From: Sphaerolaimus hirsutus
Lineage: Eukaryota > Nematoda > Chromadorea > Monhysterida > Sphaerolaimidae
DNA length: 64,000 nt
NCBI GenBank assembly: GCA_964036195.1
Contig: OZ038457.1
Location: 2,455,180 to 2,519,179 of the forward strand
Direction: 5' to 3'
Shown one piece after another: positions 9,204 through 64,000 of the stretch. Within the stretch, counting starts at the first letter, position 1; every line of letters begins with the position of its first letter. A program made the position numbers and the translations under genes. Under the pieces are notes generated by a model that saw only the letters and a list, made by a program, of their open reading frames with translations, made no database searches and was not told the DNA's origin.

Positions 9204-9544
9204 CTGGGGCAGTGAGATTTGGATACAGTGTGTGTGTTTGAGTGTGAGTTTGGCTTGGGAATGAATAGCACCGGAATTTTGGAAAAGTTATAAACTAGTG
9301 GTTCAAACAGATTTGAGATAAGGTTAATGAATTTTAACAAAGTCAACAGTAAATACGTTATAGACTCGTCATTCAGATAATTCAAATGTGTCCAAAACAG
9401 ATTCCCAAATTTCGGTGGTGTGCTAGTGTGTGCGGCGCCGAACGGTAACGGTTCGTCAGTAATGGACCGGTGAACTTTCGTATGGCACGTTTTCAAGTTT
9501 GCGGTTAACTGTAGGCGTAGGTTACATTTGCGATGAAGCAGGGG

Positions 9545-9865
9545 TTCAGTATGGGGGGGTTGGGAGGGTAATTGGGAGGGTTAAATTTGGAGGGTAATTG
9601 GGAGGGTAAGATTGGGAGGGTAAAATTGGGAGGGTAATTGGGAGGGTTAAATTGGGAGGGTAATTGGGAGGGTAAGATTGGGAGGGCAAAATTGGGAGGG
9701 TAATAGGGAGGGTAAAATTGGGAGGGTAAAATTGGGAGGGTAAAATTGGGAGGGTAAAATTGGGAGGGTAAAATTGGGAGGGTAATTGGGAGGGTAAAAT
9801 TGGGAGGGTAAAATTGGTAGGGTAACTGGGTGGGTGAAAGTGGGAGGGTAATTGGGGGAGGGCTC
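9545..9865. repeat. G-rich minisatellite, GGGAGGGTAAAATT units
   Basis: About twenty tandem units of 12-14 bp alternating GGGAGGGTAATT and GGGAGGGTAAAATT on the plus strand. The regularly spaced GGG triplets could form G-quadruplexes on this strand. It lies upstream of the second visible Asterix exon, so probably in that gene's first intron or 5' flank. A proline-rich minus-strand frame across it is an artefact. Confidence 0.9.
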
Positions 9866-24600: not shown

Positions 24601-27600
24601 CCCCCCCCTCGCCGGCCTCCGTAAACAAGCAGCCCCCCCCGCTCAAAAATCCTGGATACGTCCCTGAAGTGAGATGTGTTTCTCACAACAACCTTCTCTA
24701 ATGGGTGGAATTGAAAGTCAAGGGCGGAATTGAAAGTGTCCCAATCATTTTGAAACTTGCTGCGTGGAAATGTTATGACACGCAAATCAGCGAAAAGTGT
24801 ACGAATTCGTCCGGACTCCGTTCGAATGTCCAAAAAATGCCCTAAAAATCCTTTAAAAAATCGTTCGAACTGCACTTGGAGTTCCGCCTTGGTGGAACTC
24901 AAAAACGTTCGAACTGCACTTAAAAATTTTGAGTGTGCGGTGCACCAATAGATCTCTATGGTTTTTACCTTTAACAAATCGCTCCTCCAAGGGATTATCA
25001 TTGAAAAAATGGCAGATGTTAAAAATATATATATACTTAACCGCCCCCCACAAAAACAGGCCCCCTGTCGCCTACCTCCGTCAACATCAGCGTGGACTAC
25101 ACGGCGAACATGTTCAACGTGCTGGTGTCCCTGCCCGATTTGACACAGTCCAAAGTGGACACGTGTACCCTTAGAGTTGTCAAAGAGACCGCAGATGAAT
25201 TGCAAGCGAGGAATTACAGCGCTGGGGTGCTCTTGGATCAGGGGGGCGGAGCTAGGTGAGTGTGGGTGTGGTGATGATGTTTTAAACTCCGCCTTTTTGT
25301 GGCTTGGTACTGCGCGTGCCCTGTTTATGTTGCAGAATATGCGTATTTGAGATTGGGTAATTCGAAAAGTGCAAAATGTAGTCATAAAATACATGGAAAG
25401 AGGCTGTGAAACAAGTCTTGCTGTGAAAAATAAGGCGATTTTATCAATGTTTCAATCATTGAAAATTTAATGCAATAAACTCTGTTCTTGTCAGGTCATC
25501 TTTCAAACTATCGGTTGGGGTGTAATTATTTAAAGAATCGCAACAAAATGATAGTCTGCGACAACTTTCACACCACAATCCACAACCACCCACACCCGCA
25601 CCTAAATACACAGCTGCATGGTGTCTCTCCCCCTGCTGCCGGGCGAGCGGTACGAGTTCACGGCCAGGGCCGTGTCCAACGGCACTCAGTCAACTGGCCT
25701 GCCCCTGTCAACTGTGGTGCAGCCCGCATTCGATACGGACACGTTTGGAGTCAAAGTGAGCATGGATCAGGCTGGGCAGAGAATTGTTGTGAGGTGGGTG
25801 AAGGGGGTTGGTGATTGGGGTTTGGGTTTTGATTAGAGTTTGAACGGGACCGCGGTACCGGTACGTGGTTCGTTAAAAAGTCGGGACTGGGGCGGTCCCG
25901 ACCCCCCAGTCCCGGTCCCGGTCCCGACAATTGAAAAAAGCCAGTCCCGGTCCCGACGACCCAGTCCCGGTCCCGGTACCGACATTAGAAAATTTCTGGT
26001 CCCGGTCCGAAAAACTGGTCCCGTTTGAACCCTAGTTTTGATGCTACTATTTCACTGCAGAAATTTCAAAATCAGCTTTTAACACGTTTGAGATTTGTGG
26101 TAAACTGAAATGTGTTCAAAACAGGTTCACCAGTTTCAGAAATTTCGGCCGTAAATTCATTTGTGTGTAGAACGATCAGACCCACACTCTGAGGCCGCAC
26201 ATTATCGCAAAATCCCTAATCTCCCAGAAACCCATTTTTACCCCATTTCGCAGCACATCGAACGGCGTGCCGCGCAAAACACTATCCGAAATTTGGTCAT
26301 CCCTAGTTGGCAAAAGTTCGGTGCTGCACGCCGATTTGCGGCTGGCCGCTGAGAAAGTTAGGGATGCGCAAATGTCGCCGTATGAGAATGAAACGGCCCA
26401 GATTGAATTTGCCGATTTGGCTGTGGGCCAGTGTTATGAGGTCGGTTTTGGGTTGCAGTTGTGGGGTCAATTCCTCTAAAGAGTGACTTGTGTGCGATTT
26501 TTAGCCGTTTTACCTATTTTTTACCTTTTACCGTTTTACCTATCGGCTTTCTATATGGTGAAAAAGCCTATAATTTTAGCCCCCCGCAAGCCCCATCCAT
26601 AATTTTTTTTTAAGCTATAGATTTCCGGAGGAGCGATTTGCTATCTACTCAACCCACCGGAGCGTCAAAATCCTGGAGACCCCTGCTAACCACTTCTGGT
26701 CACTTGTCACTTGCAAAATTGGCCCGATGCCAATCACTCTCCATCAACGTCTCAAAGCATCCATGTCTCACGCACGCAGGTGCTGCTGTACACGGTGACC
26801 TCGTCTGGCATCATCTCGGCCAACCAATCGTCGACGTGGCTGCGGGCTCCGCCCCCTTTCGGCGCCATGCGCACGCTGCCACCAAACACTACCGCTCTGG
26901 AGGTGTGATAGTGAGAAGTTTGATATCGATAGAATGGACATTTTGATTGTGAAGAATGTAGAAGGAAAAAAAACCCTGTGGGATAGGGTTGGGAACCCGA
27001 CCCGAACCCGAACCCCATACTCGCTCACTTTTTGGAACCAAAAACCCGATACACGAACCCGAACCCGATACTCGCTCACTTTTTGGAACCGAAAACCCGA
27101 TACACACAAACGACTCTACTACCCGAACCGGAACCCGATATCCGACCTCAATACCCGAACCCGAACCCCATACGCGCAAATATTTTTGGAACCCATCGAA
27201 TTTTTGGTCCCGATATCCGAAGCCGAAAATTTTGAAATTCCCAACCCTACTGTGGGACGACATTGAAGGGAAACTTACTAGTGTGTGTGCCCGAGAAAAA
27301 AACGCCTCGATTCAATCGGATTTCACGAGGGGGGGGTTATTCAAGTGCGGAATTATTCAAACAAGTACTATCGATTTAAACCCCCTCCCAATAACCCCCA
27401 ACCCCCCCCCCCCCACCCCAGGTGTCCATCGACCTCTCAGCAGCCAGCCCCCTGTGCCGGCTGCAGTTCGTGGCGCGTCGCATGGACACTGCCCCTCCGC
27501 TGGTCGTGTCGCAGCAGAGCTACCCCGTGGGCGACAAGACCAACTTCGACGTGCGTCTGCACGACTTGCTGCCCTACAGGACATATAGGTGTGAGGCTAC

Positions 27601-30600
27601 GGTTGTTTGTGGTGGACTGGCTGATGGGGGTGCGTTTTTGAGGGGGGTTTGTTTGTTTGGTTTTGTTGTTGTTGTGGGGGGGTTGTGGTGTGTCCGGGTT
27701 CCAGTCCCGCGCCCTGCAAAGTCTCAAACGTCACTTAACTTTTGACATTTTACGTTTCACACTTTATACGGTGCGTAAAGGTATGAAAAGTGCCAAAAAA
27801 TGTTGCTCTTAGAAAATATTTTTCCAGAAAGTATCGGATACGTTTAAAAAAAAACTGATAGCAGAACCGCTTTTTAAATTCCTATGTCCTAACTCAACCA
27901 CATAAATATTCGAAAAAAACGATCATCAAAAAATAACACCCTCCATTTCCCACCCAGATTCAGTCGACTCAAACTGCGCTCAAACCACATTTACCCTGGC
28001 GGCAAAAAACGTCACCACCGCCGAGGGCCGGCCGGGGCCAGTGCGCCAACTTTCAGTAAGCGCCGAGGCGCCATACAGCGCCACGGTAACTTGGCGCCAG
28101 CCCGCCATGCCCAATGGACGCCTTTTGGACTATGTTGTGCGCGTGGCGCCAGTGAAAGATGGACGATATTTTGGGGAGGAACAGTGGAATGTGACTGTGC
28201 GACCGGATTTGAGCGGGTTTATGAAGTATAGATTGACGAATTTGACTGGAGGCAGCAGGTGAGGGTTTATGGGTCGGGTTTTTTTAAACGCCACTGGTCG
28301 ATACGACGTCAATTGATTTCAGTTGTCTGTTCAGTTCTTAGTTTTAGGTATACCAAAAGTGTTAAATTCATTTTTTGTATATGATGTGTTGTAATTTTGA
28401 ATTGAGTCAAAAATCAAGTCAAGTCTAGGTAGTCAAATGTTGAGTAGAAAAAGAAGTTAATTGACAACTGATATCATTTTACGCTGCCTTAACTGGGTGT
28501 AGGGCTGATGCCGTTAATAGTTAATCACCATATTCGTTTTCTCTTCGAGTTGTTGTTGTTATTCGTGTCGGGCAAAGCCCTGTACCCCTGGGTTCTAAAC
28601 CCGACAACAAACCCGACAAAATGTTGTGCGTTTCACAGGTACGAGGTGTCCGTTCTGGGGCGCACCGGGGCCGGCCTGAGCGAATCGTTCTCCCTCGACG
28701 CGACCACCGAGAACAATTTCAGACACCTGCTAAACATGCCCATATGGGGTTGGTCATTTTTTAGCTGAACAAAGTTTTGGGGGCACAGTCCTGCGGAGAA
28801 AAATCGTTTGAAAAAAATCAAAATACGTGGCCAAAAGTGGTTGTAATGGCTAAACTAGGTGTATGAGTATTTTGAAGGATAAAATGGACAAAAGGCTGCA
28901 AGAATTAGCGATTTTTATGTGAAAATTTGGGCAAAATACTTCAAAACGTAGGCAGTCAGCTGACCAATCTGTGGGGTGTTGTGGGTTTTTCAGGGATAGC
29001 AGCTCAACATATGCATCTACTGAAAATATAGATACCTGATCAACACCAAGGTAGATGAATTGGGGGTAACCTCCCCCACCCAACCCTTACTGGGTCCCAC
29101 TAGGAAATCAACCCCCCCCCTCTCAGCCCCTCCGGCGCCGGGCGCACCCCCTTCAATCCTGGCGCATTCGATCCACCCGAACGACTTCGCCGTGCGCTTC
29201 GTGCCCGCCGAGGTGTTGAGCAACAGGCACGGGCCCCTGCTCAAGTACCAGCTGCTCGTGGCCGAGACCGACGTCGATGGCTGGGTGCCCGCTGCGCAGC
29301 AAAGTGGGGATGGTGTCTCGGGGACTAGGGGGAATAGTAGTAGGGTGAGTTTTGGCTGTCGTGTCTCCGACACATTGTATTTACGATATTTGTGACCAAT
29401 CTGGCACGGAGCCAAAAATATAAAAACGAGAGATTGTCGTTACAGATAAACATATCTTAGGCATGTCCTTTTACCTTATTCTGTTTAAAAAACAAGTCGC
29501 AATTTTCGAAAAATCACTTTTGACATACAACCCCCACTGTAGTTCATGGAAATATTACTTTCACACCTAACTGTACACAGTGCCTTTATATTACCGCATT
29601 GTGATAATTCAGTACCGTATGATAATTTCACGATTCGTTGCAGAACTGGTGGAGCGTTCGCAATGTGGATAAATGGCCGGTTTACGTTGCATTTGAGAAG
29701 GCGCTCTCCCCCGATCTCCTGAGAAACACTGATGGAATTGTGGATGTAATTGGTTAGTTACATGGTAATTGTATTTGGTTAGCAATAAAGGTAAAATGTC
29801 AAACACTTTTGTCAAATGTCAAGTCATGCGACAATGTTAGGCGCAAGGTGTGCTTTCTTTTTTTACTGGGCATTATTTATTCGACGTGACATTTTTACAA
29901 GTTGTGAAATTGCGCCGTGCTTGTTTTTGTTTGCCACCAAACAATTCAAATTTAAAATGAGAGAAAACGTATCACTCCAGATCCAGGGTTCACATGTTAT
30001 TTGACTCGTTACTAGTGGTTTATTAGCGCCATGGCGCTATTTTGCTCTGGCGCTTGGCGCTGTACTACTAAATGGCGCCACAGAATGACTAGTGATGGAA
30101 AAAGCGCCAAAACATTGGCGCCAAGCACTGCGCTTTTTCGAACCCCAGCGCCAAGCGCCAATAGCGCCAGAGTAAAATGGCGCCAGCCACCAGAAGCGCC
30201 GTGGCGTTTTTTTGTTTGGGGCTAGCGCCAAGCGCCAATGCCAGGCATTTTGTTCCTGGCTCCACGGAAAAATAGCGCCACAAGGGCCATGGCGCTTTAT
30301 ACTGTGGCACGGGCGCCAGGCGCCGGCGCCATAGCGCTTTTCCATCACTGGTCCTGACAATTTTCACATCACTACTTCTGCCTCATCACTTCTGCACTAT
30401 CTAAGAAATTGGTCCCTGCTTTCTATCCTCCATTTTCCCCCTCAGGAGTGGACGAGTGTCACTCAAACCGGAAGAAAAGCGCCCCTGGTCTACAGAAGTT
30501 TTGCAACGGGCCCCTGCGCCCGGCGCGATATTACAGGGTGAAACTGCGCGTGTTTACAGGCGAACAGCTTTTCGCCGACTCGACATTTTCTCCCGTGGTT

Positions 30601-35287: not shown

Positions 35288-35487
35288 NNNNNNNNNNNNN
35301 NNNNNNNNNNNNNNNNNNNNNNNNNNNNNNNNNNNNNNNNNNNNNNNNNNNNNNNNNNNNNNNNNNNNNNNNNNNNNNNNNNNNNNNNNNNNNNNNNNNN
35401 NNNNNNNNNNNNNNNNNNNNNNNNNNNNNNNNNNNNNNNNNNNNNNNNNNNNNNNNNNNNNNNNNNNNNNNNNNNNNNNNNNNNNNN
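35288..35487. other. Assembly gap, exactly 200 N
   Basis: A round-number gap typical of scaffolding with unknown distance. Order and orientation of the sequence to the right relative to the left depend on linking evidence that cannot be seen here. Frames spanning it are meaningless. Confidence 0.99.
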
Positions 35488-38333: not shown

Positions 38334-38366
38334 ATTCTCCCTGCAGATTTGTAGGGTAGGGCGTAC

Positions 38367-38907
38367 TAGGGTGTCAACTTTCCGTTTTCCGTTTTCCGTT
38401 TCCGCTTTCCGCAGGCAAATTTTTTTCCGTTTCCGTTTCCGTTTTCCGGCTGCTAAATTTTTTTTCCGTTTCCGTTTCCGTTTTTAGGGCTCATCTTCCG
38501 TTTTCCAGCTAAATTTTTGGTTTTTCCGCCTTTTTTCCGTTTTCCGGTTCAATTATCTGTTTTTCCAGCTTTTTTCACTTTCCAGCTCAATTTTTTGTTT
38601 TCTGTTTCAGCCAAACTGGTAAACATGCATGCAGGCTCTTAATTATGTGAATTTTGCCCATTTTTAGCAAAATTTCTGCAAATTTTTTTCCGTTTCCGGC
38701 AACATTTCAGCAAATTATTTCCGTTTCCGGCATATATTTGGCAAATTTTTCCGTTTCCGTTTCCGTTTTCCGGCCTTTCATTTTTCCGTTTTCCGTTTTC
38801 CGGCAAGTGCAAAAAAATTTCCGTTTCCGTTTTCTGTTTTCTGGCAAGTGCAAAAAATTTACCGTTTCCGTTTCCGTTTTCCGCCAAAAAGTTTTTGTTG
38901 ACACCCT
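38367..38907. mobile_element. hAT-like element, (TTTCCG)n type, exact TSD
   Basis: 541 bp. Ends TAGGGTGTCAACTTTCCG and GTTGACACCCTA; exact 8-bp flanks GGGCGTAC (38359-38366, 38908-38915). The interior is almost entirely TTTCCGTTTTCCG variants in one direction. Peptides read from it (KRKRKF, GNGNGK) are repeat translations, not proteins. Confidence 0.93.
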
Positions 38908-39154
38908 AGGGCGTACGCCCGATAGATTTTTTAAAGTTCAGCCGCATCGACGCACATGCACCGAGAGCAAGGCGGTTTGTAAAATATACGAAACCATCCC
39001 TTAAGGTCGCCGATATTGCAATATGACATATATCACTTCGATTTTGGCATGGAAATCATGATTTCGTCATTTCTTGGCTGTCGGCCAATTTGTTTTTTAT
39101 TTTATTTTGTTGGGCGGGTTACTCGCATATGTCACGCTTTTGTGTAGTCAGGTG

Positions 39155-39764
39155 TAGGGTGTCAAATTTCCGTTTTCCGTTTCCGCCTTTCCGCAGGAAA
39201 AATTTTTACCTTTCCGTTTTCCGTTTTCCGGCAGCCGAAAATTTTTTACCTTTCCATTTTCCGGCATCTGAAAATTTTTTACCTTTCCGTTCCCGTTTTT
39301 CCGGCCCATTTTTCCATTTTCTGGCTGAAAATTTTTTACCTTTCCATTTCCATTTTTCCAGGCCATTTTTCCATTCTCTGGCTCGATTTTCAGTTTTCTG
39401 GCATTTTTCCATTGTTTTTCCAATCTGTATTTATTTTTTTTCCACTATGGGGTTTTTAACTACCCGGTTCTTCTGTCATTCATAATTTTTATCTGTATCC
39501 AAATCTGTAAAAAACACAAAGTAATTTTGGACACATACTTTGCAGTCCGCTGAGTATACTTTTTACTGTTCAGTTACATCAAAGTTCACTTTTGCTTAAT
39601 TCTTATTGTTGTAGTGTTTTTTGCTACCTTTTGTTGATTTTTTGTTGGTTCAGTTAAGCTTGAAGTACGAGTGAAGTTACTGGCATGATCCATAGTTGCA
39701 GAATGTACAGCTACCACAATCAAAGCCAAACAGGCAAACCAAAAAAAATTTTTTTGACACCCTA
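39155..39764. mobile_element. hAT-like element, (TTTCCG)n type, exact TSD
   Basis: 610 bp. TAGGGTGTCAAATTTCCG to TTTTTGACACCCTA; exact 8-bp flanks GTCAGGTG (39147-39154, 39765-39772). The left half is TTTCCGTTTTCC and CATTTTTCC repeats, the right half is AT-rich unique sequence. Same family as 38367-38907, inserted independently. Confidence 0.93.
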
Positions 39765-40086
39765 GTCAGGTGGTCACTTTTTTAGTGTCACTTTTTTAGC
39801 GACAAGAAAGAAATGCATGCACAAGCGTACAAAAGCGCGACTTAATGCGAGTAATGCACCCGACAAAATCAAAAAAGAACGAGTTGGCCGACGGCCAAGA
39901 AATGACGAAATCGTGATTTCCGGGCCAAAATCGAAGTGATATACGTCATATTGCAATATCGGCGACCTTAAGGGATGGTTTCGTATATTTTACAAACCGC
40001 CTTGCTCTTGGTGCAAGTGCGTCGATGCGGCTGAACTTTAAAAAATCTATCGGGCATACGCCCTACCCTACAAATTTGTAGGGAGA

Positions 40087-40229
40087 TGTAAGAGCGTTTT
40101 TACGATGGGAAAAACACCACCCCACAAAATTTTAGACAAACAAATGCAATAATAATTCACGGAACGTAAACTACTATGTATTTTGTAAACTAAATTTGGG
40201 CAAACTTTCTCAGACATTGCGACGGCTTT
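40087..40229 (+). repeat. 143-bp direct repeat, left copy (intron-like)
   Basis: Identical over 143 bp to 48567-48709. It begins T|GTAAGAGCG, a strong splice-donor sequence, contains an AT-rich body, and has ACTTTCTCAG, a strong acceptor, at 40204-40213, followed by 16 shared bases. So the repeat looks like a 126-nt intron plus the start of the next exon. Downstream of the acceptor the sequence is open in the polyprotein frame with no ATG for about 480 bp, consistent with a start codon in an upstream exon. That exon is missing: the fold-back element lies directly before the repeat. Confidence 0.8.
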
Positions 40230-43047
40230 AGGCAACCCTAGCGCGCTGGAGCAGGCCACCACTCAATTTTTGGCGTTTTGTTCTAACAGGGGATTAATTC
40301 CACCCATTGCATCTGCAGCTAATGCTACCTTAGGTGCGGGAACGGCCCCTGGGAACACAACCGCGCAGACTGTGCCTCCGCCGGCGAGTGTAAGCGGATC
40401 AGCGGGCGGCAGTGGAGCGGCGCCTGCGCCTGCAAACGCTACGGCTCAACCAGCTACCAGCGTAATCAATTTGGCGGGACAGCCGGGTCCCTCCTCCCCA
40501 GGATCGTCAGGATCGATTTCACCTGCACCTAATCCTACGGATCCAGACTATCTGGCGCAGCACCAGGTGCCGCACGGCACGGCTGCTACGCTGACCGCCC
40601 TGGCTACGCAGTGTGATGCATTCACAGGAAGGGCTGACAAGAGTTTCAAGGATTGGAGACGTAAGTGGGATATTTTGTGTGATGCGCTAGGTGTTTCAAT
40701 GCGCTCTAGGCAAAAGTTGCTGCCTATCTTTTTACAAAAGAATGCTAATTCTATTTTTGTAGCTAGAAGGCGGGAACTGCGCGCGCTTGATTACAAAGCC
40801 ATGATGGATCGTTTGGAAGAATTGTTTGCAAATCCAAACGCTCAGCATCATGCACAGCGCGAGTTTATTGAGTCAACTCAAAGTCCCACTGAATCTGTGT
40901 TGGACTGGGCAACTAGATTGGAACGTGCGGTAAAGCGCGCATACCCAATGCTACATTCCGCCCAAAGGGAAGGCATGTGCATCACTAAGTTTCACCAGGG
41001 GTTGGACAAGGACATTAGGCGCAATTTGGCGGTGCACGCCAATATAAGTTGGAAGGAATTAGTTGATAATGCGCGCATGCAAGAAAGCTACAAAAATCTT
41101 GAAACCGTTCAGAAGGAACATGCGAAGTCGGCCAGCGAGATCGTCGCCGAGACGTCGAACCAGGTCATGGAGCGCATCATGGCCATGAACCTGCACCCCT
41201 CGGTCCAATCGATGGAGGCCGAGAGTGCCGAGAATGCGAAGCTCAAGGCCAAGGAACGGGCACTCGACGAACGACAGAAAAAACTCGACGCCCAGGAAGC
41301 TAAGATGATGGGCGCACCGCGCCCGAGGCGTGAGTTACCGCCCAAGAGGTTTGAAAATGGATGTTGGGAATGTGGATCTCCTGATCACTTTCGCTATCAA
41401 TGTCCAAATAAGCCCCCTCTCGAGCCATCTGCTGGCAACGATAGCAATCAGCGTGGCCGCGGAGGCGACTTTCGGGCGCGCGGTAGAGGGGGCGGCCGAG
41501 GGCGAGGCCATGGACAGGGAGGACAATATCCACAAAACTTTGGGTATCCAGGTGGATGGGTACCAATGCAATTAAGTCAACCTATGACCGTGCCTTCCTC
41601 GCAGATGATGCAGCCTGTGTACGTCCAGAGCCAGCAGCCCGCGGCCATCGGATGGCACCCACAGCCACAACCGGCGCAATGGCCGTTGGAATCGCAGCAA
41701 GGCCAGAGCAGCAGTGTGCCGCTGCTGAATCCGACGACAGTGACACAGGTGGGTGAATGCACTTACAAGGCCGTGACCGAGTCATCGCCGTCTTACGCTC
41801 AAATTCTCTTCCATCATGATCAACTATTGACATTGCAAGGGCTGGAACCGGAAGCCCCTGAAGAGGAGGAGGAGATGGAGGAGCAACCTGTAGCTAGCCT
41901 TCAGTGTAAAATGCATGCGCTCATGGTAGATCGGGAACAGTGGATTAGCCACTGGGCGTATCAACGCGAAGCCACGTCAATCCTATTTTGTACCAGTTGG
42001 TTAGATTATCTGCGGCGCACTGCAATGCATGATCTGAAGGATGAAGATTGTGTGGTGCTCCCAGACTGTCGCCCGCATGACGACCACAATGATACGCTCA
42101 CCAGAATCGAGTGGAGGGTTTTGCGTGACGCCCCATTAGACCCATTCCTAAATGAACCCCCTGTGATTTTGTCCCCGCGTACGTTTTTGAGCACATGCGT
42201 TGATAAAATGGACGAATTCAGAGACAAAACGTCTGCAGTGCCGCGCCAGCGAGCGTATTCTGAACCACCGTATAATAATCAAGTTTTTGGCACCCTGTTC
42301 ACAGTGTTCACCATCGCCGTGGTAATGGCGTGCTTGAGCTTGGTGCCCTTGGCGGCGGCCTCGACGATGCCGGACACGCCACTGCTGTGCAGTGACCTGA
42401 CCGATCACTACGACTTGTACACCTACCCCGACTTGCCTAACTGCACCACGTTAGTCGATTCTGCTGTGTCTTTGACTAAACCGGTTCCCCTGAAACTCAC
42501 TATTTACAAACGCAATATGGTAGAGTATCGTGCCACTGCGTATCGATGTGTAGCGGCCACGCGGTCGGCTCATACATACCAGAACTTTTGGGGTGACGTC
42601 ACTTTGGAACATTTTGAATCGCAGCCGCGTGCGGTAGATCCCTTGGAGTGTGAGAGCATGATGAAGTACCACAAGTGCAACGACGGCGCGCTTCAGCCAG
42701 TGGAAGAGCTGAGCAACGCATGGGACACTCAATACCCGACAAACGTGAGTTATTCGGGGCACGGGCTGTACTGTTGCAGCTGGTTAATTACCAAAACCCC
42801 GCAGTGTGGGTTGTTCAAGGGAGATGTACGCATGCGCTACGGCGCCAAGGTCATGCAAAGTACGCTAGGAGAAGTGTCAAAGTGTAATTACAAGGAGGGC
42901 ACCTGTACCCTGCCCGACGGTAGCCAATTAGTCTGGAAACCAAATCCAAAGGCTGAATGCCCCTATGAGAAATGGCAAGAAATAGCTGGGCTAATTAGAC
43001 AAGATATTTGGCTCGCGTGTGATCACACTTTGGCATTGTCATTTTGA
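40214..43047 (+). CDS. Polyprotein part 1: Gag-like region, CCHC knuckle, glycoprotein-like ectodomain
   Basis: Open from the acceptor at 40213 to TGA at 43045. From 40270 it is 925 codons. An Ala/Pro/Ser/Gly-rich leader is followed by a capsid-like region (about residues 112-290; FTGRADKSFKDWRRKWDILC, KFHQGLDKDIRRNLAVHANI), which resembles retrotransposon Gag. A coiled, Lys/Glu-rich stretch precedes a zinc knuckle CWECGSPDHFRYQC (41362-41403, CX2CX4HX4C) and an RGG-rich segment (RGRGGGRGRGHGQGG). An acidic patch (EEEEEMEE) follows. A hydrophobic signal- or anchor-like segment at about residues 673-699 is followed by a Cys-rich ectodomain with NCT and NVS glycosylation sites. Inference: a Gag joined to an envelope-type surface protein. 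It is GC-richer than its surroundings and on the same strand and frame as the following parts. Confidence 0.75.
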
Positions 43048-44565
43048 GCAAAAGAAGAAATCATTTCATGTGGCAAAAAATTATGGAAATCAGACCAGGA
43101 TATTGTTGTGGCACCGTTCGAAATCCCCCCAATTAGGTATGTGCGGGAGAAACGTCGCGCAGCACGCCCCGGATTCGGCGTAGTGGACACCGGTCACTTG
43201 GCCGCAGCGATGCAAGCGGTGTACGAGACATCTGAGCAAACTATGCGCGCGCAGGCCGTGTCTACTTGTAGGCATGTGCAACATTTCCAGGAACTTCTCC
43301 GTCTAGCTATGACCGAGCACCCGACGACCACAGCGCGCTGGTACATGCGCGACAATGAGATTTTGGCCAAGGCGGTGCCAGACGGATTTCTAGTGCATAA
43401 GTGTTTTGCGGTAAAGACTTATCAGTTGGGCACCGAAACAGGTAAAGGCGCGTGCCATGCTACGGTCCCAATTCGAATGAAATTACATGGACAGAACGTG
43501 ACCTTACATTTGGATACAATTACAAATGCCCTTCTGTTCCAGCCGGTTATGGGAACGTGCACAAATCGCCACAACCGCGTGTTGAAATTGCATGGGCAGT
43601 GGTATAAGTATTTACCTGAGAAAGGCGCCCTGGAACATATCCCCGTTTACAACACCCACAGTTTCCCACACAGGTGGCAGCTCGAACGACCGACGGATGT
43701 GCACCATCAGATCTTTGCCGCAACGACAATGTACAATTTGTCTGAGCTGCTGCCGACCACCACGCTGAACGACGTGTGGCACTCATACGCAATTGTGCGG
43801 CGCGTGCATGGAATGCCGACGCATGCAGTTGATGGCAGTTTACAATCGCATCGATTAATGGCCAGGTCAATGGTGAGCGTGGGATTTTGGGATTTTGACG
43901 CCTTGAGGTCATGGCTGCAGATATGGATTTACCTGGTGTGTGCCATAGTAACTTGCCAGTATTTATTAGCAGCTTTGTTAGCCGCCGCGCCCCCGGCAGC
44001 TACGATGCTAATTGAACGTGCGCGCCGACGACTGCGACGGGAGTCAAGGCCGCTAATTACCAGACACAGAGACGCAGGTAAGCGTAGCTTTATGAAAAGC
44101 TATGACGGCCGACTGACCGTGTTGAATCCGACAACAGGTGCGTCCGAGTGCGCACCAGATGACACGGTAACGGTACAGATGTTTCCATCAATTGAATATA
44201 ATCACCAATTAGAAATGGCGGAAATTTCCATGAGCCCACCGGTGGAGAGAATCAGAATGATTACGCTATCAAAAGATGAACAGGAAAATATAAAGTCTGT
44301 CGTCGCGAGGCGGAACGGGCCTGTGCATGTCTACTACAGTCCTGCAGTGCCCGTGTGCATGGACGGCATCATGTACCACAGATGTTTGCTGGACACTGGC
44401 GCCATGCGCTCGTTATGCAGCAGAGATGTGTTCCAGGAGCATCGACATGGACACGACGCCGTTGAAGAAACTTCTCCCATTTCCCACATGCGATGCGCTG
44501 CGGATTCCAAGCTAATGATAATTGGTCAGTTGGAAATGCCCATTGAAATTGGGGGACACACATGA
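43048..44565 (+). CDS. Polyprotein part 2: membrane-anchor region and retropepsin-like region
   Basis: Directly in frame with part 1 after a single TGA (43045-43047); the frame is open at once after that stop, so this is either a readthrough stop or one inactivating change. A basic REKRR segment lies at 43147, followed by a Cys-containing helical region. Near 43912-43992 there is a clear hydrophobic anchor (WLQIWIYLVCAIVTCQYLLA), then an Arg-rich cytoplasmic-type segment. At 44392-44403 the motif DTGA, preceded by hydrophobic residues (CLLDTGAMRSLCS) and followed by a LMIIGQLEMPIEI stretch, fits a retropepsin-type aspartic protease. Having the protease after the membrane region is not the usual gag-pro-pol-env order. 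The frame closes at 44563-44565. Confidence 0.7.
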   Translation, partial: AKEEIISCGKKLWKSDQDIVVAPFEIPPIRYVREKRRAARPGFGVVDTGHLAAAMQAVYETSEQTMRAQAVSTCRHVQHFQELLRLAMTEHPTTTARWYMRDNEILAKAVPDGFLVHKCFAVKTYQLGTETGKGACHATVPIRMKLHGQNVTLHLDTITNALLFQPVMGTCTNRHNRVLKLHGQWYKYLPEKGALEHIPVYNTHSFPHRWQLERPTDVHHQIFAATTMYNLSELLPTTTLNDVWHSYAIVRRVHGMPTHAVDGSLQSHRLMARSMVSVGFWDFDALRSWLQIWIYLVCAIVTCQYLLAALLAAAPPAATMLIERARRRLRRESRPLITRHRDAGKRSFMKSYDGRLTVLNPTTGASECAPDDTVTVQMFPSIEYNHQLEMAEISMSPPVERIRMITLSKDEQENIKSVVARRNGPVHVYYSPAVPVCMDGIMYHRCLLDTGAMRSLCSRDVFQEHRHGHDAVEETSPISHMRCAADSKLMIIGQLEMPIEIGGHT

Positions 44566-44929
44566 GTATGACGCGCAGCGCGACGAGGTCGGCTACCAGC
44601 GCTACTCAACGAATTGGCGCTCACTACGGCTGCGAGTTGCGTTCACGCCCCGCCGCTACAAGGAGCTGCCGGAGCTGGGCGCGGGCGAGCGCAACGACTG
44701 CGGCCCGGAGCGCCTGGCGTTCGCGCACCGCGAATACACCATGCCCGGCAACCCGATCCCGAGCACAGGTATGTTGGGGATTGCGCACGTCGAGTTTCAC
44801 GACCTGAACAACAACGTGTTTGACAACATCTATTACGCACATGCGTATGGCGTTTTCTTGCTCGAAAAATCGGCGCTGAGACTTAGTAAAAAGACTTTTA
44901 CTTCCACGACCCCCACGAGGTGTCATTGA
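44550..44929 (+). CDS. Polyprotein part 3: short segment in the +1 frame
   Basis: Coding-quality sequence moves to the +1 frame at about 44550, next to a GGGGG run, and returns to the original frame at about 44890, next to an AAAAA run. In this frame the reading is open to TGA at 44927-44929 and includes YRYSTNWRSLRL-like and NNNVFDNIYYAHAYGVFLLE stretches. The two shifts cancel, and both sit at homopolymers. Possible causes are sequencing indels, decay, or programmed shifting; I cannot tell which. No family recognised; it would lie between the protease and helicase regions. Confidence 0.5.
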
Positions 44930-47900
44930 ACCGGGTGCACCCGCCACACCTGCGCACCAAGTACGTGATGCTGGCCGCAGCATACATGTACCACGAGTCT
45001 TTGCTGCGTTTCCGAGCGGCACGCGCTACGGCGGTGCGCGCGCTAATTGAGTGGGAAGCGACCGACGCAGGTACCAAGGCGTGCATCACGATCAACAGGC
45101 TGGACCTGGCCGATGCCGTCAACGACGAGCAAGAGCAGATGGACGAGCAGCAGAGACGCGCGAACGCGCAAATCAACGCTCTACCCCAGCTGCTGGTCGG
45201 CGCCGGGCCGATGTCAGTGCTGACGTTGACCAAGGCGATGCCCGACGACGACCGGCCCGACCCGACGCAGCCAAAGTTGCAACTGCGAGTGGTCACTTTA
45301 GAGGTAAGTCCGGAGCGGGCTGTAATTGTGGGCAATTTGGACTTGAAGTTGAGCCAGGCGGCGCTCCCGGCCGAGCTCGAGAACGGCGACTACATGGTGC
45401 GCACCACCAATGAGTCGCCCAACTATGTGCGAACCATGCGTTCCTTGCAAGGCGCTATTGAGCGCCTGAACGAAGGTTGGAGACCGTCCAACATACGCTC
45501 GGGCAATGTCTTAAAACTGGGTGACCAGATCGCCATTGCCATTGTGTATGATGACCGGTTGTCCGACACGTTCACCCAGTGGTTGCACATCCGCGCCACA
45601 TCCGCGCCCCTAGAAGACGAAATCCGTCAGGGCACGTCCAAAGCGCTGCTGGTGAGTAAGCCCGGCGAGTTCAAGCCACTGGGCGGCCAGGCGAAAACCC
45701 TGGCGGCCGTTTTAGCCGCCTTGAAGCTGGCGTGGCCGCTGTTGCTCATGTGCGACTCCCCGTTCGGCACTGGCAAGACCACTGTGCAGAACCAGGTGGC
45801 GTACATGTGCTCGTTGTACTTCAACCAGTTTAATGGTCGCCCATTCCCAGACAGCAATTCCACCCTTTCCTCCGACATCACTTCCAACGCCAAGTACCAT
45901 TCCACCATCGTCACGTGCACCGTCAACTCGGCGACGGACGAGAGCACTAGGCGTGCTGTGCAAAACATGTGGTGCACCGGCTGCGACGGCGTGCACGAGG
46001 CCGTGCGCCGCCTGCTCCTGGGCCGCAAGCAGTGGTCCGAACTGCCCGCCGCGCAAGTCAAGGACATGCTGCAAGTGCCAGGGTACGTTGAATATTTGAA
46101 ATTGAGAGCAGCGTTCGCTGTAAGGGTGCTGAGCCCCCTGTTGGAAACCCAGGAGGTGTACAGCGACCTCACTGTAGACAACCTGCCCGCGTTGCACAAA
46201 ATAGCGCAGGATACCCCGTTCTCGGTCGCACGGGCCGACGCCCAGTGGGTAGAGCTGGTAGACCAGTACTGGGCGGTAAAAACTGAGTACGAGACCGTGC
46301 ACTCCATCGTCGCAGGTCCCAATCAAACCCCCCAGCAGGTGATGAAGGCGCTAATGGAGCAGGTACCGCACCTGGTCGTCACTGGTGAAGATGACGATGA
46401 AGAGTGGGACGACGACGACAACGAGATCGTAGTGGGCCGCACGGGCGTCGACGTGGACGACCCGGACCTTGAGGACACGGACTGGGGCCGCGTGCTGCGC
46501 CGGGCCGCCAGGAGGTACGCCAAAGGCACCGTCAAGTTGCACAAGTATGTTCTGGATTTGTTGCAGCCGGGCCAGATCCACGTGACTGTCGATTCGACAC
46601 ATGATGTGCGCATCAAGCACATCAAGTACTGTGCCATGATAGTGGACGAGGCGTCGCTCGTCATGAACATCTCCATGGTCACAGCGTTGAACCCCATGTC
46701 GCTCCCTCACAACGGCTTAGTCTTGCTGTTCGGCGACAGCAAGCAACTCACCCGCAAAGTTCAGACCCAGCGATGGGTTGAACCCTTCCTTAATCCCTCT
46801 CCATCTTTGATTGATGGACTCACAGCGTCCAAAATGTGCCCCCTGCTGCGGCTGGAAACGGTCTTCCGCGGGCACCCCCAGCTGATCAACGCCAACTCGC
46901 ACGCGGCGTACGAAGGCCGGCTCCGCCCCTATCATCAGAAATCGCCGTGCAGGGATGACAACTTGCCGCGCATGCCGGGCGACCACGTCCCGATCCCGCT
47001 GTCCACGGTCATCAACCACACCGGACTGGAGACCAAGGAGGGCACGTCGACCGTCAACCTACCCGAGCAGCTCATCGTAGTGCAGTTGGTTAAACATTTT
47101 GTGGAATTGGCAAACCAAGGCGGCGTGCCCTGGAGTGACTTGAGTCGGGCGGATGCCATTTTGGTGGTCACTTTTTATGCGGCGCAGCAGCGCGCGCTGA
47201 TCGACAAATTGGCAACCGACCCGTCGTTGAAGCACTACGGGCGAGAATTCTGGGCGACTCGAGTGCTCACCGCCGACAAAGCGCAAGCCAGAGAAGCTGA
47301 GGTGACCATTGTGTCGTGCGTGCGCAGCAGCGAGCCGCCCGCGCGCGACAGGTTGACCACCCAGTATTCTCAGCAGACCACTCGAGTCGGCTTTGTGGCT
47401 CAGCTGGAGCGTGGAAACGTGGCCACCTCCCGCTCGCGTTGCGCCAGAGTCGTAGTGGCCAACGTGGAGACCTTGCTGTGGTCTGACTTCTTCCACATTT
47501 TCTTTTCATATGAATTCGCTTCGGCTGGTCTTTACCAGTATCACGCAGAGAAAATCTGGGCATCCAGGATATGGACCTGGTCGCCTGACTGGAGGCCACA
47601 GGCCCACTGCCCCGAGCACCAGTACGACGACGACGACGAAGCCGCCCAGACTGAGCTCGCCCAGCCGGACGTCAATATGGACGAGCCCGTGGACGTACAA
47701 AACGCGCCCCAGCCGGCGGACGAACCGCTGCCGTACGACCCCACGGACGAGGTCGAGGACATCGCCAGCACCTCCGACGGCGAGGGCGACGACGCCACAT
47801 TCTCCGCGGCGGAAGAGGAGGCACTGCTGGCCCCCGGCGGCGACATCGAGCCCGACGAACCCGTGGCGGTCGCTGCGCCAGCGCCGGCGCCGGCAAAAGA

Positions 47901-47970
47901 GGACGACATGCAGCCCGAGGTCGCTATTGAAGAAGATGTGCCGATGGAGGGCACTAACGACGGAGTTTGA
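44890..47970 (+). CDS. Polyprotein part 4: SF1 (UPF1-like) helicase with acidic tail
   Basis: Superfamily 1 helicases use ATP to move along nucleic acid. Open from about 44890 in the original frame; 1016 codons from 44920. After about 270 residues of unassigned N-terminal region come motif I DSPFGTGKTTV (45754-45786), motif II VDEAS (46642-46656), motif III LLFGDSKQL (about 46724-46750), motif IV-type LETVFRGHPQLI, motif V-type TADKAQAREAEVTIVSC and motif VI NVATSRSR (about 47416-47439). The GDSKQL and 'NVA.SR.R' forms point to the UPF1/NAM7 branch rather than UvrD. All key residues are present. A strongly acidic, Ala/Pro-rich tail of about 140 residues (DDDDEA, GEGDDATFSAAEEEALL) ends the protein. 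Antisense frames of up to 231 codons are shadows. Confidence 0.9.
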   Translation, partial: KDFYFHDPHEVSLNRVHPPHLRTKYVMLAAAYMYHESLLRFRAARATAVRALIEWEATDAGTKACITINRLDLADAVNDEQEQMDEQQRRANAQINALPQLLVGAGPMSVLTLTKAMPDDDRPDPTQPKLQLRVVTLEVSPERAVIVGNLDLKLSQAALPAELENGDYMVRTTNESPNYVRTMRSLQGAIERLNEGWRPSNIRSGNVLKLGDQIAIAIVYDDRLSDTFTQWLHIRATSAPLEDEIRQGTSKALLVSKPGEFKPLGGQAKTLAAVLAALKLAWPLLLMCDSPFGTGKTTVQNQVAYMCSLYFNQFNGRPFPDSNSTLSSDITSNAKYHSTIVTCTVNSATDESTRRAVQNMWCTGCDGVHEAVRRLLLGRKQWSELPAAQVKDMLQVPGYVEYLKLRAAFAVRVLSPLLETQEVYSDLTVDNLPALHKIAQDTPFSVARADAQWVELVDQYWAVKTEYETVHSIVAGPNQTPQQVMKALMEQVPHLVVTGEDDDEEWDDDDNEIVVGRTGVDVDDPDLEDTDWGRVLRRAARRYAKGTVKLHKYVLDLLQPGQIHVTVDSTHDVRIKHIKYCAMIVDEASLVMNISMVTALNPMSLPHNGLVLLFGDSKQLTRKVQTQRWVEPFLNPSPSLIDGLTASKMCPLLRLETVFRGHPQLINANSHAAYEGRLRPYHQKSPCRDDNLPRMPGDHVPIPLSTVINHTGLETKEGTSTVNLPEQLIVVQLVKHFVELANQGGVPWSDLSRADAILVVTFYAAQQRALIDKLATDPSLKHYGREFWATRVLTADKAQAREAEVTIVSCVRSSEPPARDRLTTQYSQQTTRVGFVAQLERGNVATSRSRCARVVVANVETLLWSDFFHIFFSYEFASAGLYQYHAEKIWASRIWTWSPDWRPQAHCPEHQYDDDDEAAQTELAQPDVNMDEPVDVQNAPQPADEPLPYDPTDEVEDIASTSDGEGDDATFSAAEEEALLAPGGDIEPDEPVAVAAPAPAPAKEDDMQPEVAIEEDVPMEGTNDGV

Positions 47971-48566
47971 GTAAACCCAGGACATTTTGTTTTTGAAAGT
48001 TTCTTTTGAACACCGATAATGTAATGGAAACTATAAACAACAGTGAAACAAACAAAACGATTAACTAAGTATCTCGAAATCACACACCAAATAGTTTCCA
48101 AGACGTTCGCTGCGGCATCGAATGGCCGAGTTTTGTCCCCCCGAGTTGACAAACGTAACCGCCGCCCCCAGTTGACCGTCCAAAATTGGCACTTTTCTGG
48201 ACAAAAAACAAGTTTTTGTAAATTTAAAAAGAGTAAAATAGTTTTGAAAATGGAAATACCTCAAAAATCCAATTGGCAACTCCATTATAAAGTCCCGACT
48301 GCAAAAGGCAGGGCAGTTGATTAACTCCCATACCGTTCTCAGCTTATTATTGCATTTTTGTAATTGCCAGCCACGTTCTGGAATTTGATTTTCGACTGTG
48401 AAATGCACGCAAGCCATTTTTGCATGCAAATAACCACTTTTGAAAATTTCGAAAAGATGAACAACTTTTATATTTAACGAAAAATTTTGTGCATGCGATC
48501 GTAAAAATAATCACCAGTCACACCTCAATAGTTTAGCCAGGAGGTAAACCGCAATGGCTGGTGGGT
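47971..48566. other. 3' flank of the polyprotein locus
   Basis: AT-rich, without a long frame that I can support. An ATG in good context (CGCAATGG, 48554-48556) lies 14 bases before the right copy of the 143-bp repeat. No purine tract or LTR-type boundary is evident. Confidence 0.45.
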
Positions 48567-48709
48567 TGTAAGAGCGTTTTTACGATGGGAAAAACACCAC
48601 CCCACAAAATTTTAGACAAACAAATGCAATAATAATTCACGGAACGTAAACTACTATGTATTTTGTAAACTAAATTTGGGCAAACTTTCTCAGACATTGC
48701 GACGGCTTT
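48567..48709 (+). repeat. 143-bp direct repeat, right copy (intron-like)
   Basis: Identical to 40087-40229. Here the donor GTAAGAGCG follows ATGGCTGGTGGGTT, so a start codon precedes an intron whose acceptor is at 48693. Distance between the two copies is 8480 bp. Confidence 0.8.
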
Positions 48710-48834
48710 TCGACGGCGACGGGGACTGCACGGCATGCACAGCCCTGCAGTGGGCTGCGCAGTACCCCGTCAGAGCACTGCATCGCAAGATCGACGCCGC
48801 TACATGGGCTGACCGAGTTCGCCATGTTTTCTAG
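48694..48834 (+). CDS. Possible short exon after the right repeat
   Basis: From the acceptor at 48693 a GC-rich 46-codon frame reads TLRRLFDGDGDCTACTALQW, then AAQYPVRALHRKIDAATWAD and RVRHVF before TAG. Its composition is like that of the helicase and unlike the flanks. However, the nearby ATG (48554) would enter in a different phase, which gives another open reading to 48946. Which reading is used, if any, is unresolved. No family recognised. Confidence 0.35.
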   Translation, partial: TLRRLFDGDGDCTACTALQWAAQYPVRALHRKIDAATWADRVRHVF

Positions 48835-48839
48835 TGGTT

Positions 48840-51083
48840 GTAGTGCTCTGCACAATTTCGTTCCCTTACCCCCCAATTTTAATTACTATTTTTGTGCGCC
48901 AAATCTATTTAAGTCAAGTTGGCTAGGTTATGTCTAGCTTAGGTGTAACTGCATTCCACATGGCATAAGGTGAGAGGGGAATTTCACATTTTTCACTTTG
49001 AAATGCCGCGGCGCGGCGTGTGGCCGCCTTTGGGCTCGCCGGCACACTGTTGTGACTCTCTGGGCGGTCTAAAGCACATTCTACCCTTTACTTATCTTTG
49101 GGCAGAGGCGGAGACTGATGGCTGATAGGTAGGTGGCGACCAGAAGCCAGGAACAATGAATTTCACTCAAAAAAATACAAAAACACTGTTTCGCGTTCCT
49201 CCCCATGTTGACTAGATTGTCGTGCGTCATCTAGTATCGGTGGGTGGTAGGAACAGCTTCTGATAACGCCCCAAGTGACAAGTCGCAGTCCAAAAAATAC
49301 TTTTCCGCCGCCCTAGCATAAATATCTCCCCGCACTCGGAAGGGTGTGGCCATCGGGCTGAAACCTTTCTCACGGGCGCTAGCTGACCGGATAGTCACAA
49401 TAGTGGGTCGCGGGGTTGGAGGTGATAAGCATTTCGCGCCCGCGGGCACTTTCTAGCTACCGTAACTTATGAATACAAAACCCCCAAACAAAGTTTCCAT
49501 GTGACATGTAGAAATTGTTGTACATATCGTTTCACGCCAATGCCTTTCATTCCCACAAGCTTAATTAATCGTTTTGTATCTTAATTAATTAACATTAGTT
49601 GTAAGCTTGTATTAGCTGTCTAATTACTTGTTAGCTTAAATTGCTGTATTAGATTTTGATGTCGTGATTGCCTTTGTACATACGTTGTTCGTTCCATTTT
49701 GATGAATATGCATTGCACTGCATTGTTATCTTTTTTTAATCGCATTAGATTAAGTAGGGATTTGTAGGTAATTATGGAAGTAAATAATTGCCGCCCCAAG
49801 TAAACTTGTAAATTATAGATTAAGCCCCATGTCGCATGAAGCTTTTAATTACCGTTGTTAGCTGATATTAATTAGTACTCTTTTCATAAGCAGCTGTGTT
49901 ACGTACGATTTTACTAAGTGCTTACATCAGAGCTTATGTGATTTGAAAGTGATTTTGTAACCTTGCCGTTTTATGTCTTTTTTAGCTTTTTATTCACGTC
50001 GATTATGGTAGCCTTGATTGCCTTATAAGTAGCTGAAAATTGTTTTTTCGCCCAAACTTTTCGATTCGACGAAAATTGATTTTGCTTCTACTCTGCCGCT
50101 ACTGTTCTTCCATCGCCCTAAAAATAAACTCTCTTCTCAACCCAACTCGGACCCCCTTTTTGTATTAGCACTAAGTACTAACTGTTTTCCCTTAGTTAGC
50201 TAATTAACAACTGCTCTAATTGCCGCGCTGCTTATGCTGAGTGTAAGTGCTGTGCGTGCTGCGGGAAACGGAACAGCGTGAGCCACCGAGTGGTTCATCG
50301 CACGTTCTGAAAAACTTACTGTCTTCGGACACGTTTCCTTAAAATTTACAACACACATTTATAACCTGGACCTCCGGGCCCAGTGCAGTGCACTGCAGCG
50401 GTGAGCGGCCGGTGAAGTGGGAATAGAGGGAAAAGTGTGGTAAAAAACCTCGTGAATCGTGTAGTCGAAAAACAGCTGAATACACGGATTCATGACAGAG
50501 AAAGAAATCTGGCCCCAGGGGGTACTTCGAGGAAATACGGTAGTCCAAAACCGCAATACTAGCGGACAAATGGAATGCGCAACGAAACGTTGGCGCTGAT
50601 CCAATGGATTGAAATTTAGTTCAAAGCTGCTTAATTGGGCGAGGGGGTATTTCAGGTGTGAATTTTCTTCGGGTATGAATTGTTGAACTTATCCGTATCT
50701 TCTAACATACGCAGACGTTGAAAAGTTCCAATTTAGAAAATCCATCCAAAAATTGAGAAAATGTAAACTTTCCAAATTTGCGGTATGGTAGTCTGCCACC
50801 ATACCTGGAGGTGCTTTGAAAAACGCGCGTTCCACCAATAGCGCTTTTATCTCAGCAACAAATAGTCACTAAAAAGCACAAAAACTACCACCCCACAGGC
50901 CAGAATAAATTGCCATCACTAAGACAGCCCCATCAGAAATTAAATATAAAGGCAGAATATCTAATATCCGATTGAAGTCATTCGAGTGGCGGGAAAAAAT
51001 GCCCATTGTGCCAGTATTGGAGAGGTCAATCCGTGCCAGGAATGCATAGAGAAACACTGGGGGACTTTTTGAGGGACCCCAAT
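48840..51083. other. No gene assigned
   Basis: 48900-49460 is mixed in composition; 48999-49050 is GC-rich (GCCGCGGCGCGGCGTG). 49490-50240 is AT-rich with repeated TTAATTAATT and TTAGCT motifs and contains AAAATAAACTCTCTTCTC near 50120, reminiscent of a polyadenylation or LTR R region, but no matching partner was found. 50515-50541 is a scrap of the TACCGTATTTCCTCG family (TTCGAGGAAATACGGTA). Confidence 0.4.
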
Positions 51084-62082: not shown

Positions 62083-64000
62083 TCACATGCCGCTCTCCAC
62101 GATACCTTCATCCACCTCTATATCATCGGGCTCAAAAGCTGGATTCTGATGCACGTGCGCCACCGCCGGCGCGGACCTCTGCTGTACTAAGTGCTGATGC
62201 AGGGGCACCCCCAAAGTGTCACCCCCGGGACTGGCCAGCGTGGCACCCCCGTTGCTGCTGGGGTGCGAGTAGGTGCCCGTCAGGCCGCGTTGTTGCAGCA
62301 CGAATAGAACGCACTGGTGGATGCTGATGTATTGTTGCTGGGGGGGGGGGGGTGGGGGGTTGGAGGTGAATTTTTGAGGTGAGGTTTCTAGTGCGGAGAC
62401 CCGGTTGCTTGTACGTTGACAAAAAAAATGTTGAAAATATAATGTTGAAAATAAAATAAGAAAGACTTTTAAAAAATGAAATCGGTAGAACCATCCACGT
62501 TTTTCTCAAATTTTCGCTTACAACTTTCGGTTTGTGTTTTTATCTTCCGACTTGCTACTTATAAGTTGACTTGACTTTTTACTTTCACACGTTTTTTTCA
62601 CTTCCCACTAGATATTGGCACAGTGCCAAACACATCCAACCCAACCCAGCCAAAACGCCATCACCCACAAACTCCCCCCCCCCCAACCTCAGTCTGCACC
62701 ATAGCAACTCTATCCTTCCTCATCTGATAGACCATGTTGAATATGTCGACGTACTGGGCTGGGGGGTGCGCGTCGACGCTCTGCAGCACCGCGTCGACGG
62801 ACACGAACGTGCCGCTGCGGCCCACCCCAGCGCTGCAGTGCACTACTGAAGGGCGCTGCGCTGACGCGCTGGGTGGCACCCGTTGTCTGGGGGGGGGGGG
62901 GGTTGAGGGGGTGGAGTGTGGCATGTGTCGAGTGAATTGTGAGCGATTTTGCTGGAGTTTTCACTTAAAGTCGCTAATTGTTTATTTGTTGTGACCAATT
63001 TATACCTTTTTTCGACTGTTTTTGGCCTGTAAATATTGTTTACTCGTTACTGTTATTTTTCCAACAACATTTTAACGATTTTTAGCTCTTTTTGCTTTCT
63101 ACATCTCGACATAGTTTGTATACAGAACCCCTAACCCCCCTGAAAAACATTGTTCATCCAATCGGAGCGGCGCTTTTATATTTAAATGACCCCCATACAA
63201 AACTCTACATTTTTGAGACCCCCACAGCCTGAATTTGAGTCGCCGTTCGACGAAATGTTCCGCGTTGAGTTGAAATTCCGTTGAGTTGAAATTGAAACAT
63301 TCAAAACAAATCTAAACACTCAAAAATCAAATAAAAAAACTATAAAAAACCGACCTGAAAGCGTAAATAAACTCGACCAAACTCTGCGGCCGGTCGGGCA
63401 CGCCGAAATCTGGCCAGGCCAAATAATGCAAATGGTAAACGGTTCTGACTGGTTGACTGCTGTCTTCCACATTGACCATCTCGTACTGGCGAACTTCATA
63501 CTCTCCGTTCATTTTTGTTTCGTTTAAAAGTGTCACCTGCGTGTGGAAAAATGTAGTGGTTGGTGTCCAATTATTTGTGAAACGAGCTGTAATTTTTCCG
63601 GGATTCGGGAATCGGGATCCCGTATGCACCCTAATCGGGATTGCGTTTTTTTTTATTTTTGGGGTCTGGATTGGGGTGTCGAGAACGTCATCCCGTTTGA
63701 ACTCTACCCTAAATCCCCCGAGAAAATTTACCATCGATCAATCCCCGGAAAGCGGCAATTTACCATTAACCCGACTCAAAACCACAACAACACACTTCCA
63801 AATCGTATCTACCCCAACACCCCCCAAAAAAAACCAAAAAACAAAAACTCACTTCCAAATCCCAAAACCTCTGAGTTTCGGTCGAGTCGGGCCAATACTT
63901 GTAGCACTTATCTCTGCCCTTTTCCACACACTTTGTCAAGTTGACAACTGCGGGACATTGCTGTTCGTAAACCATGCGCCAGAAATCGTCCCTCGTAGCA
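62083..64000 (-). CDS. Ptp10D: R3-type receptor tyrosine phosphatase, C-terminal part of catalytic domain (4 exons, 5' incomplete)
   Basis: Hydrolyses phosphotyrosine by the Cys-based PTP mechanism. Exons, read leftwards: 64000-63853 (enters from outside; [20 protein letters not shown], then [20 protein letters not shown]), 63536-63355 ([20 protein letters not shown] ... [19 protein letters not shown]), 62886-62688 ([20 protein letters not shown] ... [14 protein letters not shown]) and 62337-62083 ([18 protein letters not shown], a Gly/Ser/Pro-rich tail, then [20 protein letters not shown] and stop). Phases agree at all three junctions. The WPD loop (Asp at 63408-63410), catalytic Cys (62835-62837), P-loop Arg (62817-62819) and Q-loop Gln are all present, so the enzyme looks active. 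The NPAF...DEGI.ESGM end is characteristic of insect Ptp10D/Ptp4E (from memory). The start of the PTP domain and the membrane segment lie beyond the window. Confidence 0.95.
62895..63350. other. Introns between catalytic exons
   Basis: Short introns (63354-62887 and 62687-62338) with long C/G tracts next to the acceptors (GGGGGGGGGGGGTTG on plus). No other feature seen. Confidence 0.6.
63590..63712. mobile_element. Decayed (GGGATC)-type element in an intron
   Basis: TTCCGGGATTCGGGAATCGG, CGGGATCCCG and an end CATCCCGTTTGAACTCTA resemble the right end CCCGTTTGAACCCTA of the 20297-21328 family. The left end is not recognisable. Confidence 0.5.

Follow-up and report, generated by a model that had tools for sequence, protein, structure and literature searches.

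The closest described systems include Atlas virus, a nematode belpaovirus represented by an endogenous element of ~9 kb with identical 271-nt long terminal repeats (LTRs) and a Gag-Pol-Env polyprotein (PMC9094657). As described in that report, Atlas virus and other nematode belpaoviruses resemble the locus studied here in having short identical end repeats, a one-frame polyprotein, a Gag, and a captured viral glycoprotein (PMC9094657). Atlas virus differs, however, in possessing a Pol with reverse transcriptase (RT) and in the order Gag-Pol-Env, whereas at our locus no RT was found, the glycoprotein precedes a protease-like part, and a helicase comes last; the main text of the Atlas virus paper does not contain the word helicase (PMC9094657). 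A captured glycoprotein is also known from Anakin, mosquito BEL/Pao elements that took theirs from a chuvirus (PMC7642597); the match of the locus, to Monjiviricetes_fusion, is below threshold. The Anakin copies classed as complete retain the whole polyprotein, the main text of that paper lacks the word helicase, and three env-bearing BEL/Pao elements carry the glycoprotein downstream of the polyprotein, in contrast to its place before the protease-like part in the locus (PMC7642597).

Gene acquisition by retroelements has been described in several other lineages. LTR elements of bdelloid rotifers acquire foreign enzyme open reading frames (ORFs), with one non-autonomous form lacking most of pol; these extra third ORFs are of esterase, exonuclease, membrane, or env types, and helicase occurs in that text only in the title of a reference (PMC5408684). 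Host gene capture is common in LTR elements of rice and sorghum (672 and 1,343 genes, respectively), which differ in their plant hosts and in an abstract that names no viral glycoprotein (PMC3726574). Insect LINEs carry a viral SF1 helicase domain for which the authors discuss Upf1-like roles, and thus share with the locus an SF1 helicase domain within a retroelement; unlike the RT-less LTR-type locus, the insect cases are non-LTR elements (TRAS and Jockey-like LINEs) (PMC5563155). Reports on ERI-6/7 of Caenorhabditis elegans (PMC11778786, PMC3213143) and on Troyka (PMC12440569) serve as background only. Among the matches listed, mostly from the open literature, none was an LTR-type element in which an SF1 helicase takes the place of pol and follows gag, glycoprotein, and protease, and the phrase gag-helicase had no literature match. 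Each ingredient has precedents of its kind (genes and viral glycoproteins that were captured, helicases in retroelements, and elements that are non-autonomous); their combination and order are, to our knowledge, new. In the Gag-oncogene transforming retroviruses, a captured gene fused to gag replaces pol and the element is moved in trans, and by this general description the locus would be comparable to them, with a captured gene in place of pol and movement in trans.

The locus lies in a 64-kb stretch of nematode DNA (the window) and consists of the following features.

40087-40229, plus strand: left copy of a 143-bp repeat, starting with TGT; ACA at 40214-40216, GTAAGA at 40088, acceptor-like TTTCTCAG at 40206-40213
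40189-42290, plus strand: Gag-like region without a start codon; capsid-like part at ~40627-41007, CCHC knuckle at 41362-41403
42295-43044, plus strand: signal/anchor-like hydrophobic segment (42295-42351) and Cys-bearing stretch, followed by a stop codon (43045-43047)
43048-44040, plus strand: glycoprotein-like region with REKRR (43144-43158), the Monjiviricetes_fusion match, and an anchor (43933-43989)
44149-44562, plus strand: protease-like remnant, DTGA (44392-44403) plus 53 residues
44549-44884, plus strand: stretch open in another frame, GC3 of 0.80
44890-47967, plus strand: SF1 UPF1-like helicase with the AAA_12 match and an acidic tail from 47626
45754-45783, 46639-46656, 46732-46749, 46861-46878, 47278-47328, and 47416-47439, plus strand: helicase motif-like blocks
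47971-48566, plus strand: AT-rich stretch of 596 nt from the helicase stop to the right repeat; TATAAA at 48032 and 48286
48567-48709, plus strand: right copy of the 143-bp repeat, 100% identical to the left copy

The bounds given in a preliminary description of this DNA, 40087 and 48709, are precisely the outer ends of the exact direct repeat. The same description read positions 40214-47970 as almost one frame, and three plus-strand ORFs (40189-43044, 43048-44562, and 44890-47967) do share one frame; they are interrupted by the stop codon at 43045-43047 and by ~320 nt (at about 44.56-44.88 kb) that are open in a different frame only, with frame changes near 44.56 kb and 44.88 kb. Between the repeat copies, the stop-free runs on the plus strand span 952, 505, and 1,026 codons, compared to a longest run of 351 codons (mean, 166) in simulations of the locus (n = 200, first-order Markov), indicating that the long open frames are not due to chance. 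We term the copy decayed because gag has no start, one stop codon splits the coding region, and there are two frame changes, which may represent sequencing error.

Profile searches against Pfam, which the preliminary description had proposed for the individual parts, placed the helicase above its cut-off, gag and the glycoprotein below theirs, and the protease only weakly. The claim of a Gag-like region with a CCHC knuckle is borne out by collinear matches to PNMA (E = 1.6e-5), Retrotrans_gag (E = 3.9e-4), and the CCHC knuckle (E = 0.007), though each stays under its own Pfam cut-off. A PDB search with the gag piece returned weak CCHC matches (best, 5a9e; E = 0.009), and the structure predicted for the capsid region from its single sequence was of unusable quality (mean pLDDT, 45.8). 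The first in-frame Met of gag is residue 171, and a stop closes the frame upstream.

The glycoprotein had been read as a signal/anchor followed by a Cys-rich ectodomain and a second anchor. Both hydrophobic segments (42295-42351 and 43933-43989) are present, but the stop at 43045-43047 splits the region, so that the pieces on either side of it would be parts of one glycoprotein. The upstream piece alone (42295-43044) matched no Pfam family; the downstream piece, which contains the basic run REKRR at 43144-43158, matches positions 337-473 of 653 of Monjiviricetes_fusion (E = 4.2e-5; 22.1 bits versus a cut-off of 27). Chuviruses belong to the Monjiviricetes. For ORF2, the PDB search gave nothing useful and no PHROGs family was found.

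At the protease, the DTGA motif named in the preliminary description is present, but the match to Asp_protease_2 is weak (E = 0.23), running from 44347 to 44469 and covering positions 1-38 of the 90 in the profile, i.e., its first 40%. Since only DTGA plus 53 residues and this partial match are at hand, a full protease is not established; read by eye, the frame from 44469 on to 44562 also looks protease-like. The piece matched no protease in the PDB. No RT, RNase H, or integrase was detected by Pfam in any of the 29 ORFs of at least 100 amino acids that overlap 38-51 kb (E limit of 1 for 4 ORFs and 0.1 for 25 ORFs [10 + 10 + 5]), in agreement with the earlier statement that neither RT nor integrase was found in any frame of the locus. 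A YDDD in the helicase tail (~47.6 kb) was considered as an RT motif and rejected, as it belongs to the acidic run.

The helicase had been described as UPF1-like, of the SF1 type, and with an acidic tail, and all three points stand: AAA_12 matches above its cut-off (E = 4.1e-23), the main motif blocks are present, and the tail begins at 47626. AAA_11 remains below its cut-off (E = 8e-4). The blocks seen (P-loop, DEA, GDxxQL, RGHP, and VATSRSR) are what we take to be SF1 motifs, and ~295 residues separate the P-loop from the DEA block. The segment aligns to the UPF1 chains 8ftm_A (residues 543-867) and 2xzo_A (565-867) at ~21 bits, a distance that leaves the donor gene unnamed. In PHROGs, the helicase (E = 8e-6) and a 135-aa frame (E = 0.0044) each matched one family, that of the helicase being of unknown function. 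The single-sequence structure prediction for the helicase (mean pLDDT, 35.8) was likewise unusable. The stretch at 44549-44884 had no Pfam match; because of its GC3 of 0.80 we group it with the helicase and read it as the N-terminal part of that segment, which over its ~3.4 kb shows no evident intron. Toward the N terminus of the helicase frame, a subthreshold match to FBO_C (E = 0.0055) was also noted (45376-45606, plus strand).

Codon usage changes abruptly within the locus. GC3 rises from 0.56 to 0.78 at a best change-point of 44570, cuts between 44551 and 44576 are almost as good, and the gain in log likelihood is 68 versus a maximum of 6.9 in 300 permutations (the frame path was set by us and the permutations were scanned at every third cut). 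The 40 codons before the break have a GC3 of 0.45 and the 40 codons after it 0.85, and codon preferences shift at the same break. It coincides with the first frame change, and the weak protease match ends ~80 to 110 bp earlier. The jump in GC3 at the first frame change shows the coding part to be a chimera. Pooled over parts of five host exons in the window (375 codons), GC3 is 0.65; its range of 0.57 to 0.87 covers or nearly covers both halves, so GC3 does not alone name the donor; the helicase codons favor C/G-ending forms, as do those of the ASTER exon part (GC3 of 0.87).

Such a junction could also arise from two unrelated events, in which a host helicase gene, inserted or retrocopied on its own, came to lie on the same strand next to an old LTR-element fragment (gag, glycoprotein, and part of a protease). 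The coincidence of codon-usage break and frame change fits this, as does the likeness of the helicase codon bias to that of the ASTER exon part. Both parts are, however, enclosed by one exact repeat, and the longest A run past the helicase stop is 6, and we regard independent insertion as rather unlikely. It is extremely improbable that the assembly joined an element to a helicase contig: frame changes do lie near the junction and the window contains an assembly gap (N at 35288-35487), but this is its sole N-run and the junction has none.

Like an LTR element, the locus ends on either side in one of two identical terminal repeats (143 bp, 100%), and the pair is the sole exact direct repeat of at least 60 bp in the 64-kb window whose copies are separated by more than 3 kb; exact inverted repeats of at least 60 bp are present elsewhere in the window. 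TGT...ACA spans 130 bp, and identity extends 13 bp further, on the left into gag and on the right into a differing flank. The opening T-GTAAGA is donor-like. By definition, LTR elements have a target-site duplication of 4 to 6 bp (PMC12440569). None of at least 5 bp was found near the repeat ends, and just two 4-mers are common to the left (40075-40099) and right (48680-48724) ends, neither of them at the repeat ends. No tRNA primer site adjoins the left repeat (the nearest TGG within 40200-40400 is at 40247; judged by TGG alone), and 48300-48570, before the right repeat, contains no purine run of at least 8. A tRNA scan with bacterial settings found nothing, as did Rfam at gathering scores.

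The left edge can be placed with the help of a related repeat in the window (38336-38365; 30 bp, 93% match to the left flank), whose match halts at 40086 and thereby supports 40087 as an insertion edge. Use of the same repeat as an empty insertion site was rejected, as the right flank fails to continue the match. On the plus strand, neither AATAAA nor ATTAAA occurs in 47900-49000. Right of the second repeat lies a GC-rich stretch (48710-48830, plus strand) that has no further match within the window; its open tail of 41 codons appears coding on inspection. On the left, an inverted-repeat element (38907-40065; arms of ~195 to 237 bp, 92 to 94% alike) adjoins the locus, and repeats rich in TTTCCG occur within and near this element.

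Repeats of this kind would also fit a linearized circle or a tandem unit in which 143 bp are terminally redundant. The locus would then represent, in permuted form, a virus-like unit of 8,480 bp, circular or tandem, that naturally carries gag, glycoprotein, protease, and helicase, with the helicase working in genome copying or unwinding. A circle-derived or permuted copy would explain repeats that come without target duplication, primer site, or purine tract; moreover, the acceptor-like site just before the start-less gag might mean that the gag start precedes the other repeat copy. The codon-usage break inside the coding unit and the partial match of the protease speak against it, as does the lack of a relative among viral contigs, and we consider this origin rather improbable. 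We only modestly favor an LTR insertion with later-rearranged flanks over the circle or tandem reading.

The acceptor-like site could alternatively connect gag to an upstream host exon, as would be the case for a host-domesticated Gag-glycoprotein-helicase fusion gene. The length of the open frames and the presence of the main helicase motif blocks would fit such a gene. Given the stop codon, the two frame changes, and no upstream exon identified, domestication appears very unlikely.

The locus is a real, unusual, and broken chimera. The explanation to which we give about an even chance is a decayed, non-autonomous copy of a nematode LTR retroelement in which pol was replaced by a helicase segment of other origin. 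Its gag and a captured fusion glycoprotein of viral type would persist as broken frames, and a foreign helicase coding segment would have taken the place of everything beyond a point inside the protease, including the expected RT, RNase H, and integrase. Most likely, template switching during reverse transcription would have joined a spliced helicase mRNA to the element, as happens in the Gag-oncogene viruses. Gag could have packaged the chimeric RNA, and the RT and integrase of an autonomous relative could have copied it in trans; we infer both this capture and the mobilization in trans from the anatomy of the locus. This explanation is favored by the polyprotein-like order of the gag and glycoprotein matches and by the exact repeat that encloses the parts. 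It is weakened by the missing target duplication, TGG, and purine run, by repeat identity that continues 13 bp beyond TGT...ACA, by a gag without start codon, by a glycoprotein that precedes the protease-like part, by the distance of the helicase from UPF1, by a host-exon GC3 range that suits both halves or nearly so, and by the failure to find a relative. Also in its favor are the GC3 break at the frame change, the truncated protease match, the lack of any RT, RNase H, or integrase match among the ORFs scanned, and a helicase segment with no evident intron.

The preliminary description had proposed an unusual RT-less, retroelement-derived unit, possibly mobilized in trans; the anatomy is compatible with this. 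Its proposal of an undescribed system does not hold for a working unit, given the codon-usage break, three breaks in the reading frame, and repeats without most LTR hallmarks. We consider it quite doubtful that the locus represents a reproducing type of nematode element (LTR or circular) with Gag, fusion glycoprotein, protease, and SF1 helicase and no polymerase, i.e., an intercellular satellite dependent on a borrowed RT or other polymerase. No relative was found in a protein database when the query was the helicase (residues 200-860; 7,987 candidates; E up to 1e-3), the ORF of gag and glycoprotein (7,992 candidates; E up to 1e-3), or ORF2 (7,996 candidates; E up to 10), and the helicase, gag, and ORF2 queries found none among viral contigs; as these searches covered a protein database and viral contigs and no nematode genome collection, they say little about nematodes. 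If copies exist, the element would be a naturally occurring satellite that encodes an envelope-like protein and has recruited an RNA-surveillance-type helicase; helicases of this type often restrain such elements. If it is a single copy, it would offer a snapshot of gene capture with a junction that can be placed to some tens of bases.

Elsewhere in the window, Pfam scans of 10 ORFs outside 38-51 kb revealed host exons. Dep-1-like receptor exons with Fn3 domains lie at 22590-28259 on the plus strand, with the locus downstream on the same strand, and those at 22.6-23.5 kb match the Dep-1 Fn3 families PF24943 (E = 1.4e-19) and PF25300 (E = 4.6e-8), which are named after a C. elegans protein and so point to a nematode host. 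Other exons match fn3, ASTER, and tyrosine phosphatase, the last two being represented on the minus strand by an exon for the PAT complex subunit Asterix (8966-9577; E = 5e-25) and a tyrosine phosphatase exon (63327-63734; E = 1e-9). At 3109-5120, dense G-rich units of ~27 bp occur inside longer direct repeats with a spacing of ~0.3 to 0.5 kb.
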